A stretch of 64,000 bases of DNA. It comes from Bacillus sp. FJAT-22090 (GTDB lineage: Bacteria; Bacillota; Bacilli; Bacillales_A; Planococcaceae). Location of the stretch: the NCBI RefSeq assembly GCF_001278755.1, contig NZ_CP012601.1, positions 682,001 to 746,000 of the forward strand. Direction: 5' to 3'. Shown here piece after piece: positions 5,996 through 15,139 of this stretch (position 1 is its first letter; each line of letters opens with the position of its first letter). The position numbers were made by a program, and so were the translations under genes. Under the pieces are notes generated by a model that searched no databases, was not told where the DNA came from, and was given only the letters and a program-made list of their open reading frames with translations.

Positions 5996-6097
5996 GGTCT
6001 TTCCCCTTTCTATGTTTCCATATTCATTATAAAAGATTCACTAGATACAATTCAATCTATTTGATAAAATGAATAAGGTTGTTAGGGGGAAGATTTG

Positions 6098-6934
6098 ATG
6101 GAAAAGAAAAAATGGTACTTTATTAATTCTGGACCTTGTAGTCCATCTTATAACATGGCGCTTGATGAGGCTTTGCTAGATTGGCACAGTGAAGGGCTGA
6201 TTCCACCAGTAATTCGTTTTTATGAATGGAATCCAGCGACTCTATCGATCGGTTATTTTCAATCTGTTGAAAAAGAAATAGATTTAGATGCAGTAAATCG
6301 TTTAGGTCTGGGGTTTGTTCGTAGACCTACTGGGGGAAGAGGAGTACTACATGAGCATGAACTAACATATAGCGTGATTGTGACTGAAAGTTATCCTGAT
6401 ATGCCAGCAACCGTGACAGAAGCTTATCGTGTGATAAGTGAAGGGTTATTGCTTGGATTTCAAAATCTAGGTTTAGATGCATACTTTTCTATTCCAGACA
6501 CAGAAGAGAAAAAGCAAAATCTAAAGAAGCCTAAAACTGCTGTCTGCTTTGATTCGCCAAGTTGGTATGAATTAGTAGTAGAAGGAAAGAAAGTTGCAGG
6601 AAGTGCCCAAACACGTCAAAAAGGTGTTATTTTACAGCATGGTGCAATCTTATTAGATCTGGATGAAGATAAACTTATCCAGACGTTTAAATTTTCTTCT
6701 GAAGCGCTACGTGAGAGAGTAAAAGCAAGTTTATCTAAAAAAGCTGTGGCCATCAACAAAATTAGTCAAAATCCTGTAACAATCGACGAGTGCAAAAAAG
6801 CATTCAAAAAAGGATTTGAAGATTCGTTGCAGATTGAATTAGTAGAATTTGCCCTATCAGAAGAACAAGAATTATACGTAAATGCGCTTGAAAAAAAGCG
6901 TTATGATAATAATCAATGGAATTTTAAAAAATAA
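6098..6934 (+). CDS. lipM: Octanoyl-[GcvH]:protein N-octanoyltransferase LipM
   Basis: 278-residue BPL/LPL-fold transferase that moves octanoate from acyl carrier protein to the E2-type lipoyl domain of GcvH, the first step of lipoate assembly in Bacillales. The catalytic cysteine falls at residue 150 in [11 protein letters not shown], the position known for LipM, and [18 protein letters not shown] forms the binding-loop motif. An in-frame TTG lies directly before the ATG, but the ATG at 6098 has AGGGGGA at a proper distance and gives the exact known length. It serves the gcv operon in the same window and, through lipoyl relay, BkdB. Confidence 0.96.
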
Positions 6935-7090: not shown

Positions 7091-9658
7091 ATGATGGTAT
7101 TAGCATCTCAGAACAATAATGCAACCATTAACATTGATCAGTTAAACAAAGACATTCAACTATTTCCACAAGTACACCCAATTACAGAAGACATGAAATT
7201 GACGCACAAAGGTGTTTCCCGACTAGTAATGATTGACCGTTATTCATTTAAAGATACGGAAAAGAAAACGCTAAAAGCAGGAGATTTTGTCGTTCTTACT
7301 GTAAAAGCTGACCCGAAATTTCCTGCACGCGGTTTAGGTCATATCGTTTCAATCGACCAATCGACAAAAACTGCAGAAGTGCTTATTGAAGAAGACTATA
7401 GAAGTGCAATTGATGATCAAGATGAACTTGAATCAGGAATTGTAAAACGTTCTCTTAATGTTATTGAGAAACCGTTGGAAGTGTATTATGAGCAAATTGC
7501 CAAACGCAATGCTACTGGACTTGCTTCAGTTGAAAAAACAGAGGAAAAACGCAAGGAATGGTTTGAGAAGTTCTACCAACAATTAGTTTCTTTAAAATTT
7601 ATTCCAGCTGGACGAGTTCTTTATGGAGCGGGTACAGGTACAGACGTAACTTACTTTAACTGCTACGTAATGCCATTTGTTCCCGATTCACGCGAGGGAA
7701 TTAGTGACCATCGTAAGCAAGTGATGGAAATTATGAGTCGTGGTGGTGGTGTTGGAACGAACGGTTCGACGCTTCGCCCGCGTAATACATTAGCTAGAGG
7801 TGTAAATGGTAAATCTTCTGGTTCGGTATCATGGCTAGATGATATTGCTAAACTAACTCACTTAGTTGAGCAAGGTGGTTCCCGAAGAGGAGCACAAATG
7901 ATAATGCTTGCTGACTGGCACCCGGATATTGCGGAATTTATCATTTCTAAAATGCAAAACCCTCGAATTCTTCGTTTTTTAATTGAAAATACGAATGATG
8001 AGACGATTAAACAATTAGCTAAGGACAAGCTTAAATTTACCCCTTTATCCAATCAAGAAGAAGCAATGTACCAGGGAATAGTAAATTATAAAGCGATTCC
8101 TGGATTAGGTGGCTTCAGCGATGATATCATTCGTGAAGCAGAAACAAAACTTCGTGATGGTGGTAATTTTACTGTTCACAATCCTGAATTTTTAACAGGT
8201 GCAAATATTTCTGTGACGTTGACAGATGACTTTATGAAAGCAGTCGAAGAGGATGCAGACTTCGAACTACGTTTCCCGGCAATTGAAACCTATTCTCCAG
8301 AAGAGATGGTATTTTATAACAAACATTGGCATGAAGTTGGAGATGTTCGTGAATGGGAGAAAATGGGTTATGCTGTTCGAACATATCGCACTGTAAAAGC
8401 AAAAGAGTTATGGAATTTAATTAATATTTGTGCTACTTATTCTGCTGAGCCAGGTATTTTCTTTATTGATAATGCGAATGAAAAAACGAATGCAAAAGCA
8501 TATGGACAAAAAGTAGTTGCTACGAATCCATGTGGGGAACAGCCGCTTGCTCCATATTCAGTTTGTAACCTTGCAGCTGTTAATTTAGCTCAATTTGCTA
8601 ACAAGGAAACTAAAACGGTTAACTTTGAAGCTCTAAAAGAAACAGTGAGTGTTGGGGTTCGTATGCAGGATAATGTAATAGATGCAACTCCATATTTCTT
8701 AGAAGAAAATAAAGTACAAGCTTTAGGTGAAAGACGCGTAGGTCTTGGAGTTATGGGATTAGCAGATCTTTTAATCTACTGCGAAAAAGAGTACGGATCT
8801 GAGGAAGGCAATATTCTCGTTGACGAGGTATTTAAAACGATTGCAATTGCTGCTTATGAAACTTCAGCGAACTTAGCAATTGAACGAGGAAGTTTCCCAT
8901 TTTTAACTGCAGAAACAGAAGAAGAAACAAATCGTCTACGTAAAGCATTTACAGAGACTGGTTTTATGCAATCTATGCCAGAGGAAATCAGAAATTCTAT
9001 CGTTGAAAATGGAATTAGAAACTCACATCTACTAACAGTTGCTCCAACAGGATCTACTGGAACTATGGTAGGAGTCTCTACTGGTTTAGAACCTTATTAT
9101 TCTTTCACTTATTATAGAAGTGGACGTTTAGGAAAGTTCATTGAAGTAAAAGCGGATATCGTTCAAGAGTACTTGCAAGCAAACAATGATGCAGATGAAA
9201 ACAACTTACCTGAATGGTTTGTTACTGCAATGGAGTTAGCGCCAGAAGCTCATGCGGATGTTCAATGTATTATTCAACGCTGGATTGATAGTTCAATCTC
9301 TAAAACAGTTAATGCACCAAGAGGCTATACGGTTGAACAAGTAGAAGGTGTATATGAACGTCTATACCGTGGCGGAGCTAAAGGTGGAACTGTTTATGTT
9401 GATGGAAGTCGAGATTCTCAAGTTCTAACATTGAAAGCAGAAGAAAATACGCTTGACGATCAAAGACAAGAAGAAAAAGTATTTGAAAAACGACCAATCG
9501 TTTTAATTGATACGATTCAGGATTTGCGTTCAACAAATGTTACAATCGGTTCTGAAGTTGGTAATACTTGTCCAGTTTGCCGAAAAGGAACAGTGGAAGA
9601 AATGGGCGGATGTAACACATGTACAAATTGTAATGCGCAATTAAAGTGCGGATTATAA
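7091..9658 (+). CDS. nrdJ: Class II (adenosylcobalamin-dependent) ribonucleoside reductase
   Basis: 855 residues. Reduces ribonucleotides to deoxyribonucleotides using an adenosylcobalamin-generated thiyl radical, independent of oxygen. The thiyl cysteine is C481 in TNPCGEQPLAPYSVCNL. Its 11-residue distance to the redox cysteine C492 equals that of the Lactobacillus enzyme, and the partner cysteine is C191 in FNCYVMPF. APTGSTGTMVGVSTGLEP is a conserved catalytic-barrel loop. The C terminus is a four-cysteine zinc ribbon (CPVC, CNTC, CNAQLKC) that ends in the shuttle cysteine. Two ATGs (7091, 7094) are possible; GGGAGG at 7081 suits either. No class I genes are adjacent. It sits between lipM and yqhR, where B. 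subtilis has other genes, so it is an insertion relative to that order. Confidence 0.93.
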   Translation: MMVLASQNNNATINIDQLNKDIQLFPQVHPITEDMKLTHKGVSRLVMIDRYSFKDTEKKTLKAGDFVVLTVKADPKFPARGLGHIVSIDQSTKTAEVLIEEDYRSAIDDQDELESGIVKRSLNVIEKPLEVYYEQIAKRNATGLASVEKTEEKRKEWFEKFYQQLVSLKFIPAGRVLYGAGTGTDVTYFNCYVMPFVPDSREGISDHRKQVMEIMSRGGGVGTNGSTLRPRNTLARGVNGKSSGSVSWLDDIAKLTHLVEQGGSRRGAQMIMLADWHPDIAEFIISKMQNPRILRFLIENTNDETIKQLAKDKLKFTPLSNQEEAMYQGIVNYKAIPGLGGFSDDIIREAETKLRDGGNFTVHNPEFLTGANISVTLTDDFMKAVEEDADFELRFPAIETYSPEEMVFYNKHWHEVGDVREWEKMGYAVRTYRTVKAKELWNLINICATYSAEPGIFFIDNANEKTNAKAYGQKVVATNPCGEQPLAPYSVCNLAAVNLAQFANKETKTVNFEALKETVSVGVRMQDNVIDATPYFLEENKVQALGERRVGLGVMGLADLLIYCEKEYGSEEGNILVDEVFKTIAIAAYETSANLAIERGSFPFLTAETEEETNRLRKAFTETGFMQSMPEEIRNSIVENGIRNSHLLTVAPTGSTGTMVGVSTGLEPYYSFTYYRSGRLGKFIEVKADIVQEYLQANNDADENNLPEWFVTAMELAPEAHADVQCIIQRWIDSSISKTVNAPRGYTVEQVEGVYERLYRGGAKGGTVYVDGSRDSQVLTLKAEENTLDDQRQEEKVFEKRPIVLIDTIQDLRSTNVTIGSEVGNTCPVCRKGTVEEMGGCNTCTNCNAQLKCGL

Positions 9659-11372: not shown

Positions 11373-11930
11373 ATGATTTCTGTAAATGATTTTAAAACAG
11401 GTTTAACAATAGTAGTAGATGGAGTACTTTATCGTGTACTGGATTTCCAACACGTTAAACCAGGTAAAGGAGCAGCGTTTGTTCGCTCTAAACTTAGAAA
11501 CCTTAGAAATGGTTCAGTAAATGAGAAAACTTTCCGTGCTGGTGAAAAAGTAGAGAAAGCTCAAATTGATAACAGAAAAATGCAATATCTATATGCAAGT
11601 GGAGATCAACACATTTTCATGGATACAGATTCTTATGAGCAACTTGAATTAAACGAAACACAAATCGAATACGAATTAAAATACTTACGTGAAAACATGG
11701 AAATTCATGTTATTCAGTACCAAGGAGAAACACTTGGAGTGGAATTACCAAAATCAGTTGAACTGGAAGTGACTGAAACTGAACCTGGTATTAAAGGGGA
11801 TACTTCTGGCGGTGGTTCTAAAACTGCAACTCTTGAAACTGGTTTAGTCGTAACTGTTCCACTTTTCATCAATGTTGGAGATCGACTAATTATCAACACA
11901 GATGAAGGATCATACGTATCAAGAGCTTAA
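11373..11930 (+). CDS. efp: Translation elongation factor P
   Basis: 185 residues, the standard length. Three beta-barrel domains: a KOW-like N-terminal domain with the modifiable loop [15 protein letters not shown], whose tip lysine is K32, and two OB domains ending in [35 protein letters not shown] relieves ribosome stalling at consecutive prolines. GGAGG lies 7 bases before the ATG. In B. subtilis the spoIIIA operon follows; here a terminator and a dispersed repeat lie between. Confidence 0.98.
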
Positions 11931-12002
11931 TTTAAAAATAGTTATATAGTTTAATTTCATTAAAGAGTCATGCAAAAATGTGACTCCTTATTAAGAAATA
12001 GA

Positions 12003-12038
12003 GGCAGTTGGAATGATTTCATTCTAACTGCCTTTTTT
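12003..12038 (+). terminator. Terminator downstream of efp
   Basis: GGCAGTTGGAATGA (12003-12016) pairs with TCATTCTAACTGCC (12019-12032), followed by TTTTTT. A weaker GAGTCA/TGACTC hairpin precedes it at 11967-11988. Confidence 0.92.
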
Positions 12039-12132: not shown

Positions 12133-12256
12133 TTGATTGGAGCGGAAGGCGGCGACTCCTGCGGGATTAGCTTGAGCTGAAGACCCCGCAGGAGCGATAG
12201 CTCCGAGGAGGCTGAAGCCAAGCCCGCGGAAAGCGTCCGCCTGGAACGAAAATCAA
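12133..12256. repeat. GC-rich dispersed repeat, copy 2
   Basis: Begins GATTGGAGCGGAAGGCGGCG, continues GACTCCTGCGGGATTAGC, GAAGACCCCGCAGGAGCG and CCGAGGAGGCTGAAGCC, and ends CCCGCGGAAAGCGTCCGCC then GAACGAAAATCA. CTCCTGCGGG pairs with CCCCGCAGGAG and GGCGG with the terminal CCGCC, so the element can fold on itself. It is the least damaged of three copies in the window. It lies exactly in the efp-spoIIIAC interval where spoIIIAA and spoIIIAB would be expected. The remaining parts of 12039-12310 show no gene. Confidence 0.85.
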
Positions 12257-12310
12257 TAGTTTCAATTTTTAATGCAAAAGAAACAATAAACTTCAGGTTT
12301 ATCTAAAGAT

Positions 12311-12341
12311 AAAAGAGTCACGCAAAATGCGTGACTCTTTT
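12311..12341 (+). terminator. Terminator directly upstream of the spoIIIA promoter
   Basis: AAAGAGTCACGCA and TGCGTGACTCTTT form a perfect stem followed by T residues. It insulates the sporulation operon from the repeat and efp side. Confidence 0.85.
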
Positions 12342-12370
12342 TCATATTTGAAGAACTTGTATCATATGCT
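12342..12370 (+). promoter_or_regulatory. Predicted sigma-E promoter of the spoIIIA operon
   Basis: TCATATT (12342-12348) fits the sigma-E -35 consensus KMATATT at every position. It is followed by a 14-base spacer and CATATGCT (12363-12370), which keeps the CATA and final T of the sigma-E -10 element. This is the mother-cell promoter expected for spoIIIA, but it stands only about 25 bases before spoIIIAC rather than before spoIIIAA. Confidence 0.75.
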
Positions 12371-12394
12371 GAAGATATGGAAGGGGGAGGCATT

Positions 12395-12604
12395 GTGGAA
12401 CTTCACGATGTACTTCGAGTTGCTGGTATAGGGTTATTAATTGCTATACTTCATTTGTTTTTTGAATCAACCGGAAAAAAAGAGTTTGCCTTTTTTTTAT
12501 TTTTTGTAGGATATATTTATATGACCATTGAGCTGCTTCGTTTACTGAGGGTGTTTTTTTATGAAATATCCACATTCCTTGAATGGCTTATTATGTCGAG
12601 TTAG
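12395..12604 (+). CDS. spoIIIAC: Stage III sporulation protein AC
   Basis: 69-residue protein with two membrane helices (about residues 5-23 and 30-52) separated by a short polar loop, as in SpoIIIAC (68 residues in B. subtilis). The sequence ELHDVLRVAGIGLLIAILH with GKKEFAFFLFFVGYIYM aligns well with the family. It is part of the A-Q feeding-tube complex in the outer forespore membrane. The frame opens at an ATG at 12377, but the GTG at 12395 has GGGGGAGG 4 bases upstream. It is the first gene of the operon here. Confidence 0.86.
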   Translation: MELHDVLRVAGIGLLIAILHLFFESTGKKEFAFFLFFVGYIYMTIELLRLLRVFFYEISTFLEWLIMSS

Positions 12605-12607
12605 CAA

Positions 12608-12991
12608 ATGATAGTATACATAACGATTATAATCGCATTCATTTTGCTGCAATTTATTGATGAAACTTATCCACGACTTCACTCTATTATTTATACAATT
12701 TTTATATTTTTATTCTTAACATACTTATTAATGACTTATATTATCCCTAATACAAATCAATTTATCTCCGTTATACCAACTAATCTCTTACCAGTATTTA
12801 AGCTACTTATGTTCTCTGTCATTCTTTTAATAGTTTCTCAAATAATTGAGGAACTTTTGACGGATTATGAGTATACAAGCCTTGCAACTATACTAACTTT
12901 TACAACAAAAGCAATATTGCTACTTGCCTGGCTCGATCATATGAAACAATTTTACTCTAAATTCTTTTCCATAATGGGACTACTTTCTTGA
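12608..12991 (+). CDS. spoIIIAD: Stage III sporulation protein AD
   Basis: 127-residue membrane protein with about four hydrophobic segments, close to the 133 residues of B. subtilis SpoIIIAD. The conserved central stretch LLPVFKLLMFSVILLIVSQIIEE agrees with the family. It starts 3 bases after spoIIIAC with a poor ribosome-binding site, so translation is probably coupled. It is a membrane component of the SpoIIIA channel complex made in the mother cell. Confidence 0.8.
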   Translation: MIVYITIIIAFILLQFIDETYPRLHSIIYTIFIFLFLTYLLMTYIIPNTNQFISVIPTNLLPVFKLLMFSVILLIVSQIIEELLTDYEYTSLATILTFTTKAILLLAWLDHMKQFYSKFFSIMGLLS

Positions 12992-13005
12992 AGGAATGAA
13001 TCAAA

Positions 13006-13917
13006 ATGGATGAAATGCTCACGAATTTGCTACTCCCAGTAAAAGAAGTCATTCAAACATTTACGTATATCCTGCTATTTGGTTTTATTTTTCTTTGCTT
13101 AGAATGGTTCATTCCTAAGAGCAAAAGATTGTTAAAGTTATTATTTATTTATCTTATTTGCTTCTTATGTTTAGAACCTGCTTATCGAACGCTAGAAATG
13201 ATTCAAACCCTTACTAGCCAGTTAGTTACAGTCTTTTTAGGAATGTATCCAGTACTGACCGCAGGTATTGCTGTTTCTGGTGGAGCGTTGCTAGTAACTT
13301 TATGGAATCCAGCGGTAGTATTCTTTTCAACGTTTACAGCATTTATGGCAGAGAAAGTATTGATACCATCAATTATGGCTGCATTTCTTCTAGATTTGAT
13401 CAGTCGAATACATCCAGCGACCTCTTTTTCGAAACTGTCAGATCTTATTAGGATGACATTAATTGGTATTACGTCAGTAATCCTTGTATTATACAGCTTC
13501 TTCATAACAGTCAATGGTGTGATTACATGGACGGTAGGAGGAGCGGTTAATGAATCTGTTAAACGATTAATACAAAACTCTATCCCATTTGTAGGGTCAT
13601 TATTAACCGAAAGTATTAGCACGATGAAAACATATTCTTCATCAGCCTCGGTTATAACTGGAAATTCATTACTAATCTCCGTATTAGTGTTAGTTTCGAT
13701 TCCAACGATTCAAACAATATTAATTGCTTTTTTATATAGACTATTAGCTGCAATTTTGGAACCGTTTTTAGATTCAGGGATAAGTGGGCTTCTAGATGAT
13801 ATTGGAAGAACACTTTTTGTACTATCTATTATTTCGGTATTGATTGCTTTTGCGTTCTTTTTCACGATTATATTAACGATGCTCTTTGCAAAACTATTAG
13901 TTAGTGGGAAAGGATAA
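13006..13917 (+). CDS. spoIIIAE: Stage III sporulation protein AE, short N terminus
   Basis: 303-residue polytopic membrane protein with about eight hydrophobic segments and the family pattern VFLGMYPVLTAGIAVSGGA, then RLLAAILEPFLDSGISGLLDDIGRTL. B. subtilis SpoIIIAE has about 399 residues. The missing part is the N-terminal signal peptide and extracytoplasmic segment, and here the protein starts right at the membrane domain. AAGGAATG lies 8 bases before the ATG and the upstream intergenic space is only 14 bases, so a longer start is not available. It is a channel-like core component of the SpoIIIA complex. Confidence 0.83.
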   Translation: MDEMLTNLLLPVKEVIQTFTYILLFGFIFLCLEWFIPKSKRLLKLLFIYLICFLCLEPAYRTLEMIQTLTSQLVTVFLGMYPVLTAGIAVSGGALLVTLWNPAVVFFSTFTAFMAEKVLIPSIMAAFLLDLISRIHPATSFSKLSDLIRMTLIGITSVILVLYSFFITVNGVITWTVGGAVNESVKRLIQNSIPFVGSLLTESISTMKTYSSSASVITGNSLLISVLVLVSIPTIQTILIAFLYRLLAAILEPFLDSGISGLLDDIGRTLFVLSIISVLIAFAFFFTIILTMLFAKLLVSGKG

Positions 13918-13922
13918 CTCTC

Positions 13923-14072
13923 ATCATTCAAACAATTTTATTTGGCATATTAATCATTGTCGTAATTGGGGAGCTTATTTCAATTCTATTAGAACATGTA
14001 GATAAAGAGAAATCGAGCTTTATAGTAAAAATTGCGATAATATTTTGGATTCTGTCTAATCTCTTCATATAA
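13923..14072 (+). CDS. spoIIIAF: Minimal SpoIIIAF-like membrane protein with no standard start codon
   Basis: An open frame of 49 codons lies between spoIIIAE and spoIIIAG. It encodes two hydrophobic helices (about residues 2-19 and 33-48) around a polar turn ELISILLEHVDKEKSS, the layout of the N-terminal membrane part of SpoIIIAF. B. subtilis SpoIIIAF continues for about 150 more residues that are absent here. There is no ATG, GTG or TTG in the frame. GGGAAAGGA ends 8 bases before an ATC codon (13923), followed by ATT, so a rare initiation codon or a decayed gene are the options. Assignment rests mainly on position and hydropathy. Confidence 0.45.
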   Translation: MIQTILFGILIIVVIGELISILLEHVDKEKSSFIVKIAIIFWILSNLFI

Positions 14073-14127
14073 ATAGTTTTTGATGCATAAAGTATTATAT
14101 CCATAATGAAAAGAAGGGTGAAGCACT

Positions 14128-14550
14128 ATCACACTTAAACAAAAACCCACTTTTCGTTTTGTTGTTATAGGAGGAGCAGTACTTTTCATAAGTCTACTTT
14201 TTTCAGGTCTTCTCAATATGGATAATGTTGGTAAAACAGAAACGAATGTAGAAGAACTTCAAACACCAGATGAGTTAGCTTCTGTTCTTGAAAGAATTAG
14301 AGGCGTTGGTCGAGTAGCTGTTTATTATCATTATTCAAATGGATCTGAGGAAGCTACGGAGAGTGATGTATCATTTTTCCAATGGACAAGTGACAGCAAA
14401 AGGGACAAGGAGGAGCTAATTGGAGTATTAGTTGTGGCGGAAGGAGCGAGCGATAAACGCATTCAAAACAAGCTTGTAATAACACTTTCATCTGTTTTAC
14501 AAATATCCCCACATAGAATTGTGATTGAAGAAATGGAATTGGAGGAATAA
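14128..14550 (+). CDS. spoIIIAG: Stage III sporulation protein AG, shortened, apparent ATC start
   Basis: Up to 140 residues (229 in B. subtilis): a membrane helix (about residues 10-30, FVVIGGAVLFISLLFSGLL) followed by the extracellular ring-building domain with LERIRGVGRVAVYYHYSNG and GVLVVAEGA. SpoIIIAG forms a large oligomeric ring in the intermembrane space. The only ATG (14218) lies after the helix and lacks a ribosome-binding site. GAAGGGTGA ends 6 bases before an ATC (14128) that would include the helix. An ATG at 14106 is in another frame and would need a frameshift. The long linker of the family is missing. Confidence 0.78.
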   Translation: MTLKQKPTFRFVVIGGAVLFISLLFSGLLNMDNVGKTETNVEELQTPDELASVLERIRGVGRVAVYYHYSNGSEEATESDVSFFQWTSDSKRDKEELIGVLVVAEGASDKRIQNKLVITLSSVLQISPHRIVIEEMELEE

Positions 14551-14554
14551 TAAC

Positions 14555-15088
14555 ATGAATGTAAAAAAGAGATCTATTTGGTTTTTAACTTTAATTAGTT
14601 TAGTAGCTGTTATTACTGTTTTTTATGTAACAGATCGACCATCGCCTTTCGATGGAATAGCATTATTCTCAAATGATACAATTGAAGATGTAGACCTAGT
14701 TGAAACCTCTTCCACAAACGAACAGTCATTTACTTCAAGTAGCAATGCCTTTGAAGAAATGAGAATGGAAGTTCAAGGGAAAAGAAGTCAACTTCGTGAG
14801 CAATTAACGACTAAAGTAGGTAGTAACGATTTCACTGCAGAAGAAAAAGATGAAGCATATAACCAAATTGAAGAATTAGTGAAAATAGATTCAACAGAGG
14901 CAATGCTGGAGCTAATTATCAAATCATTAGGTTATGATGATGCGCTAGTAAGAATTGAAAATGAATCTGTATTAATAGATGTTGTGTCAAATGAGCAGTC
15001 CTCTCAAAAAGCGGATGAGATCATTTATGCTGTAAAAAGAGAGTGGCCACAAGCTTATAAGGTAGAAGTTAAGTTTGACGGTCAATAA
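14555..15088 (+). CDS. spoIIIAH: Stage III sporulation protein AH
   Basis: 177 residues (218 in B. subtilis). One N-terminal membrane helix (about residues 7-24), a low-complexity Ser/Thr/Glu linker, and a C-terminal YscJ/FliF-type domain with FTAEEKDEAYNQIEELVKIDSTEAMLE. In the family it spans the septal space and binds forespore SpoIIQ. The in-frame ATG at 14525 overlaps spoIIIAG without a good site; ATG 14555 has GGAGG 9 bases away and is chosen. It is the last gene of the operon, followed by a terminator. Confidence 0.88.
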   Translation: MNVKKRSIWFLTLISLVAVITVFYVTDRPSPFDGIALFSNDTIEDVDLVETSSTNEQSFTSSSNAFEEMRMEVQGKRSQLREQLTTKVGSNDFTAEEKDEAYNQIEELVKIDSTEAMLELIIKSLGYDDALVRIENESVLIDVVSNEQSSQKADEIIYAVKREWPQAYKVEVKFDGQ

Positions 15089-15108: not shown

Positions 15109-15139
15109 AAAAAAAGTGCCATACTGGCGCTTTTTTTTA
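15109..15139 (+). terminator. Terminator of the spoIIIA operon
   Basis: AAAAAAAGTGCCA and TGGCGCTTTTTTTT around a three-base loop, 20 bases after the spoIIIAH stop. Confidence 0.88.

Follow-up and report, generated by a model that had tools for sequence, protein, structure and literature searches.

Can a SpoIIIA-SpoIIQ channel be built without its ATPase? The question is raised by a 64,000-nucleotide (nt) stretch of Bacillus sp. FJAT-22090 (contig NZ_CP012601.1, positions 682,001 to 746,000; hereafter the window), in which the spoIIIA operon begins directly with spoIIIAC. An initial annotation of the window proposed that spoIIIAA, which encodes the ATPase, and spoIIIAB had been deleted or had moved elsewhere. 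In Bacillus subtilis, sigma-G activity and forespore integrity depend on the ATPase motifs of SpoIIIAA, as an excerpt of PMC2703783 describes. Values quoted from PMC12720343 put sporulation at 0.001-0.003% in B. subtilis upon single deletion of spoIIIAA, spoIIIAB, spoIIIAE or spoIIIAG, whereas deletion of spoIIIAH lowers it only to 5%. The role of the SpoIIIAA ATPase, the cargo of the channel and the existence of a channel at all are open in the sporulation field.

Profile searches of the complete genome support a true loss of both genes. In the 4.21-Mb one-contig genome, no protein exceeded the cut-off (281.3 bits) of the SpoIIIAA profile TIGR02858, and the SpoIIIAB profile TIGR02833 had no match; B. 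subtilis, used as a positive control, was over the cut-off with both. The SpoIIIAA profile returned two matches only, at ~24 bits each. One was the transcription terminator Rho (TIGR00767, 668 bits) and the other was ComGA (NF041000, 349 bits, over cut-off). ComGA has the T2SSE domain but is identified by its own model and scores far below the SpoIIIAA cut-off. An operon without spoIIIAA and spoIIIAB and with spoIIIAC in first place was thus borne out in the window and in the whole genome, and relocation of the two genes was rejected at the sensitivity of these profiles.

The same two genes were missing across the family. We call this family Planococcaceae (also Caryophanaceae), since the group holds the window and since Psychrobacillus is placed in Planococcaceae in a section of PMC6971209. 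Among 200 family genomes, an even sample, covering 19 genera, of a larger group, SpoIIIAA was over cut-off in none, and SpoIIIAB reached E≤0.001 in none, the FJAT-22090 genome included. SpoIIIAE was found in 150 of the 200 and in 13 of the 19 genera, always below its curated cut-off. A sample drawn at order level fell entirely (150 genomes) in the same family. Across 151 sampled Bacilli, 12 of them in the family, SpoIIIAE was present in 112 and SpoIIIAA was over cut-off in 103. Outside the family every SpoIIIAE-positive genome carried SpoIIIAA (104/104; 102 over cut-off, with G227 and G258 scoring 217 bits). SpoIIIAA without SpoIIIAE occurred once, in the fragmented genome G244, and 34 genomes had neither.

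For locus comparisons we used the window with 12 close relatives retrieved with its SpoIIIAE (72-88% identical, best match P. vulpis), together referred to as the Psychrobacillus loci, and a further 20 that represent 12 other genera. On the strength of these close matches we take the organism to be a Psychrobacillus. The order spoIIIAC, spoIIIAE, spoIIIAG, spoIIIAH, accB recurred in the 12 independent Psychrobacillus contigs and in all 20 other-genus loci. This rules out an assembly artefact; a shift in assembly, which the initial annotation had named as a way for its claim to fail, was not seen. The operon in the window contains six genes:

12395..12604, + strand: spoIIIAC, 69 residues, GTG start (PF06686 over cut-off; TIGR02848 E 6.6e-9, below cut-off)
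12608..12991, + strand: spoIIIAD, 127 residues, divergent (assigned by place and by homologues at the same place elsewhere)
13006..13917, + strand: spoIIIAE, 303 residues (TIGR02829 E 4e-27, model positions 133-377 of 381; PF09546 over cut-off)
13923..14072, + strand: mini-spoIIIAF, 49 residues, a transmembrane hairpin only, with a probable ATC start (open reading frame by place and hydrophobicity; hhalign)
14128..14550, + strand: spoIIIAG, 140 residues, ring-building motif, shortened insert and a probable ATC start (TIGR02830 E 1.5e-13, below cut-off)
14555..15088, + strand: spoIIIAH, 177 residues (PF12685 E 2.4e-17, over cut-off; PDB 3uz0_A E 9.9e-18)

The membrane core of SpoIIIAC, SpoIIIAD and SpoIIIAE is present. 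SpoIIIAC and SpoIIIAE fall below their NCBIfam cut-offs but exceed those of Pfam (PF06686 and PF09546), and SpoIIIAD is recognised by place and relatives only. No sporulation profile matched SpoIIIAD. Matches to the window's SpoIIIAD lay between spoIIIAC and spoIIIAE in 30 of the 32 fetched family loci (29 at E<1e-3 and L038 at E 0.24), and in the remaining two it was recognised through a relative's SpoIIIAD.

The losses extend into the retained proteins. Alignment with 15 outgroup loci showed that SpoIIIAE lacks both a signal-peptide-like segment and the N-terminal ectodomain. Its open frames measure 262-363 residues inside the family versus 372-649 outside, and the missing part is the N-terminus. 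In a SpoIIIAE tree of 24 of the 33 family loci (the window, three of the 12 Psychrobacillus relatives and 20 others) and 15 outgroup loci, the family's reduced forms lay on one side of a single branch with 100/100 support and a long stem. A single event in an ancestor, with rapid divergence afterwards, would fit this topology. In one relative, Psychrobacillus sp. NEAU-3TGS (L013, ~6001-6908), the spoIIIAE frame is split and open only at 6120-6908, and the match is one base shorter than those of its relatives; this is either a real disruption or a sequencing error.

SpoIIIAF and SpoIIIAG are trimmed as well. Of SpoIIIAF only the N-terminal hairpin of ~50 residues is left and the soluble ring-building domain is absent. 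A mini-spoIIIAF frame was seen in 33/33 loci, in each case selected for being the most hydrophobic one at the expected position, a choice that biases the set. By hhalign these frames matched the SpoIIIAF N-terminus with 90% probability (E 1.5e-6), and three control profiles stayed below 1.5%; there was no match to PDB sequences. Outgroup SpoIIIAF frames ran to 215-303 residues in 14 of 15 loci, and in L122 SpoIIIAF was not picked up. SpoIIIAG keeps its ring-building fold, and the best match of its predicted model is the SpoIIIAG structure 5wc3. Its insert spans 27 residues in the window and 16-31 in the family (the same 24 of the 33 loci as in the tree), compared with 60-61 in the outgroup (13 of 15 loci; in the other two SpoIIIAG was not found by phmmer). 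The lost insert is probably the collar. A collar is common to SpoIIIAG and FliF, as a portion of PMC8092281 describes, and in this respect the family probably differs from the FliF/PrgK-type ring-building proteins of the flagellar MS-ring and type III secretion systems.

The genes that remain are still maintained. Sequence comparison indicates that every remaining frame from spoIIIAC to spoIIIAH is under purifying selection. Ratios of nonsynonymous to synonymous change (dN/dS), pooled over the window versus the 12 Psychrobacillus relatives with synonymous sites near saturation, were 0.025 for spoIIIAC, 0.067 for spoIIIAD, 0.050 for spoIIIAE, 0.18 for spoIIIAF, 0.234 for spoIIIAG and 0.070 for spoIIIAH; the neighbours efp and accB gave 0.035 and 0.119. 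A sigma-G-profile match at E≤1e-80, assigned to sigma-G by rank and score, was present in 150 of the 200 family genomes. These were identical to the 150 SpoIIIAE carriers, as judged by reading both genome lists (the SpoIIIAE list was also counted by script).

The partner proteins were sought in the FJAT-22090 genome, and for SpoIIQ in this genome only. SpoIID is over its cut-off. SpoIIQ (230 residues; PDB 3uz0_B E 3.3e-21; NF053738 E 8.3e-47, below cut-off) lies between spoIID and spoIIID, and the adjoining SpoIIID is over the PF12116 cut-off. SpoIIM was over cut-off in 0/200 family genomes. Weak SpoIIM-profile matches in frames of ~210 residues were observed in four genomes of one genus (G028, G045, G069 and G079; genus g9), which have no SpoIIIAE. 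The Germane domain of GerM (PF10646) was not found in the FJAT-22090 genome. In the family it occurred in 45/200 genomes at E≤0.001 and in 31/200 over the Pfam cut-off, mostly in frames of ~400 residues, and we do not claim a family-wide loss of GerM.

In the Psychrobacillus loci, mini-spoIIIAF and spoIIIAG seem to start on near-cognate codons (ATC, ATT or ATA) preceded by good ribosome-binding sites. In 11 of 13 loci the mini-spoIIIAF frame has AAAGGA and, 8 nt further on, an ATC or ATT codon, with no in-frame canonical start upstream; the other two (L010 and L014) have an ATG two codons upstream instead. Five of the 11, including the window, contain no ATG, GTG or TTG within the first 15 codons. 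The other six have a TTG or ATG at codons 5-10, so that a later start is possible. For spoIIIAG, all 13 loci share an invariant GAAGGGTGA with an ATH codon 5-6 nt downstream of it, and 9/13 have no in-frame canonical start upstream. The program-made list of open reading frames places the spoIIIAG start at 14218. Ordinary gene callers may miss mini-spoIIIAF and clip the membrane anchor from spoIIIAG.

The gene order efp, promoter, spoIIIAC, spoIIIAD, spoIIIAE, spoIIIAF remnant, spoIIIAG, spoIIIAH, accB was established in the window, where efp ends at 11930. The operon is flanked by the following elements:

12000..12035, + strand: terminator-like stem-loop 3' of efp (16-pair stem, T-rich tail)
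about 12135..12258, + strand: GC-rich element between the two terminators (from the sequence; weak, sub-threshold Rfam match to tsr24)
12311..12341, + strand: second terminator-like stem-loop, abutting the -35 element (14-nt arms, 100% complementary)
12342..12370, + strand: sigma-E-like promoter 5' of spoIIIAC, TCATATT-N14-CATATGCT (from the sequence and the Psychrobacillus loci)
15109..15137, + strand: terminator-like stem-loop 3' of spoIIIAH (stem-loop prediction)

This agrees with the layout first described, in which efp is followed by two terminators, a sigma-E-like promoter and then directly spoIIIAC. A repeat reported between the terminators was not confirmed: the core of the GC-rich element occurs once in the window, and an 18-base pattern taken from the element was found in 1 of 137 fetched loci. 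The site upstream of spoIIIAC appears to be a conserved promoter-like element of sigma-E type, judging by its bases. It may be the former spoIIIAA promoter, as the initial annotation proposed, or a new one. Reading the upstream sequences, we observed it at the homologous place in 13/13 Psychrobacillus loci (in L009 the scan chose an equal-scoring site elsewhere, and the homologous site was assigned by eye). The -35 element is TCATATT or TCATAAT and the -10 element CATATGYT or CATATAGT. When 1000 stretches of 121 nt were drawn at random from the window, 18 reached a score of at least 13, the level of the window site. The loci of other genera also have a CATA...T -10-like element, with a weaker -35 part in several.

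The interval between efp and spoIIIAC was compared in relatives, as had been proposed. In the 20 other-genus loci it measured at most 501 nt in 13 and 1.2-2.7 kb in six, and in one efp lay outside the fetched stretch. No ATPase-like open reading frame was read in the gaps longer than 400 nt (8 of the 20 loci; frames of at least 60 residues) or in all 12 gaps of the Psychrobacillus relatives (frames of at least 80 residues). A new ATPase gene in this gap was rejected for the loci examined, where the frames look unrelated; by eye and without a profile check, we take them to be nitronate-monooxygenase-like, von Willebrand-type, acetyltransferase-like, TPR-like and other unrelated proteins. Elsewhere in the window, an 855-residue frame (7091-9658) presumably encodes an adenosylcobalamin-dependent ribonucleotide reductase.

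Since B. subtilis needs SpoIIIAA and this lineage keeps the rest under selection, the complex either runs without SpoIIIAA or uses another engine. We lean somewhat towards a family-wide, functional, pared-down SpoIIIA complex that is independent of SpoIIIAA. The ancestor of the Planococcaceae would have lost the cytoplasmic ATPase arm, made up of SpoIIIAA and its membrane partner SpoIIIAB. Intermembrane domains would have gone alongside it, namely the SpoIIIAE N-terminal ectodomain, the soluble SpoIIIAF ring domain and the SpoIIIAG insert. Kept behind a sigma-E-type promoter would be the membrane core (SpoIIIAC, SpoIIIAD, SpoIIIAE and the SpoIIIAF hairpin), SpoIIIAG stripped to its ring-building domain, SpoIIIAH and SpoIIQ. 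The core of SpoIIIAC, SpoIIIAD and SpoIIIAE may itself be the conduit that lets small molecules pass out of the mother cell into the forespore, by diffusion or along ion gradients, with SpoIIIAG and SpoIIIAH docking it to SpoIIQ; the ATPase arm of B. subtilis would then be an added module. All the lost parts are absent together. This speaks for a module that can be separated, perhaps the ATPase arm together with its scaffold, and for a minimal conduit of the core with SpoIIIAG/SpoIIIAH and SpoIIQ.

The initial annotation had suggested a channel without its ATPase. A SpoIIIA-SpoIIQ complex made without SpoIIIAA is supported by the purifying selection, by the shared 150 carriers of SpoIIIAE and the sigma-G-like match, and by the intact spoIID-spoIIQ-spoIIID cluster. 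We infer both that this complex is a working conduit and that it runs without the help of another ATPase. The following observations weigh against a functional conduit free of any ATPase. The predicted SpoIIIAE structure was too poor to use (predicted local distance difference test 43.7) and so gave no structural sign of a pore. None of the 150 sigma-G-profile matches reached the curated cut-off. ATPases of the type II secretion type (PF00437) occur in 198/200 family genomes, among them ComGA beside ComGB in FJAT-22090, and could act as a surrogate. The related species P. syltrankelensis formed no visible endospores under sporulation conditions, though a small heat-resistant fraction survived 80 °C, according to the part of PMC13228071 that describes it.

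Replacement of SpoIIIAA and SpoIIIAB in trans by another ATPase, either ComGA with ComGB, which resemble them, or a pilus-type ATPase, is unlikely. ComGA and ComGB (NF041012, 289 bits) are both over cut-off and adjacent, ~4 kb upstream of the window, and the two genomes without a PF00437 ATPase (G034 and G050) also lack SpoIIIAE. Such a motor would be expected only with the reduced channel, but PF00437 ATPases were as common in SpoIIIAE-negative genomes (48/50) as in SpoIIIAE-positive ones (150/150) and do not track the channel. Moreover, SpoIIIAB, the SpoIIIAF ring domain and the SpoIIIAE ectodomain, possible holders of an ATPase arm, are gone too. We consider it quite unlikely that the complex transports nothing and is a structural anchor that joins the two membranes and positions SpoIIQ, SpoIIE and others. 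SpoIIQ and SpoIIIAH here remain recognisably similar to the B. subtilis proteins of known structure, and statements in PMC12720343 describe the direct SpoIIQ-SpoIIIAH contact in B. subtilis as dispensable and propose further recruiting roles for SpoIIQ. A pure anchor, however, should not need the polytopic SpoIIIAC, SpoIIIAD and SpoIIIAE, which show the lowest dN/dS values of the operon, with SpoIIIAH close to them.

Decay of the operon as the lineage gives up sporulation would fit the missing visible spores of P. syltrankelensis (PMC13228071, in the same part) and the 50 of 200 family genomes that lack both SpoIIIAE and a sigma-G-like match. This explanation is very improbable, as every remaining gene is under purifying selection, the operon is retained in the same genomes as the sigma-G-like factor, and sections of PMC7924749 record family members that have lost these genes and nevertheless sporulate. 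Movement of spoIIIAA and spoIIIAB to another site, or their being overlooked through divergence, is conceivable in a family whose SpoIIIAD, SpoIIIAE and SpoIIIAG are highly divergent. It is nevertheless extremely improbable given the searches of the 200 genomes with a working control, the identity of the two low-scoring matches in FJAT-22090 and the strong conservation of SpoIIIAA outside the family.

The gene losses themselves have been published. A 2012 passage (PMC3533761) lists Lysinibacillus sphaericus C3-41 as lacking spoIIIAA, spoIIIAB, spoIIIAD, spoIIIAF and spoIIM yet spore-forming, and judges the genome insufficiently reliable; against that verdict, the 200 genomes analysed here show that the loss is real. 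Passages of a 2021 study (PMC7924749) describe a Planococcaceae/Lysinibacillus group without SpoIIIAA, SpoIIIAB, SpoIIIAF, SpoIIM, SpoIIB and GerM that is still spore-forming by a mechanism to be elucidated, and give the Sporosarcina signature Spo0A-AC-AD-AE-AG-AH-SpoIIQ-DP; in one passage SpoIIIAG, too, is listed among the proteins that Planococcaceae lack. Our gene set shares with these passages the absence of SpoIIIAA, SpoIIIAB and SpoIIM. It differs in that SpoIIIAF, called absent there, persists as a remnant, and in the SpoIIIAE and SpoIIIAG domain losses, which those passages do not describe. We found no earlier account of the mini-SpoIIIAF or of these domain losses in our literature searches, although a 2022 survey (PMC9210971) may cover part. 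The true loss considered in the initial annotation is supported; it missed the trimming of SpoIIIAE, SpoIIIAF and SpoIIIAG with the SpoIIIAF remnant, the family-wide extent and the prior report.

With the B. subtilis SpoIIIA-SpoIIQ channel, the reduced system shares the order spoIIIAC to spoIIIAH with a reduced spoIIIAF, a sigma-E-like promoter, SpoIIQ beside spoIID and the ring-building domains of SpoIIIAH-like and SpoIIIAG-like proteins, in the same efp-accB locus as outgroup locus L117. Unlike B. subtilis, it has no SpoIIIAA, SpoIIIAB, SpoIIM or SpoIIIAE N-terminal ectodomain, only a hairpin for SpoIIIAF, and a much reduced version of the 60-residue SpoIIIAG insert.

Overall, what appears to be new beyond the published losses is the coordinated pruning and the mini-SpoIIIAF. 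The locus is a natural experiment in which the ATPase and defined extracytoplasmic domains were removed together while the rest stayed under selection, and it offers a test of what the motor is for. The joint loss points to one module and predicts contacts between its subunits, and a much smaller complex becomes available to structural studies and for transfer into B. subtilis. We hold it to be an even call that the whole endospore-forming family runs its channel without a dedicated ATPase, that the coordinated losses mark one motor-and-scaffold unit, and that SpoIIIAC, SpoIIIAD and SpoIIIAE with SpoIIIAG/SpoIIIAH and SpoIIQ are the minimal conduit.

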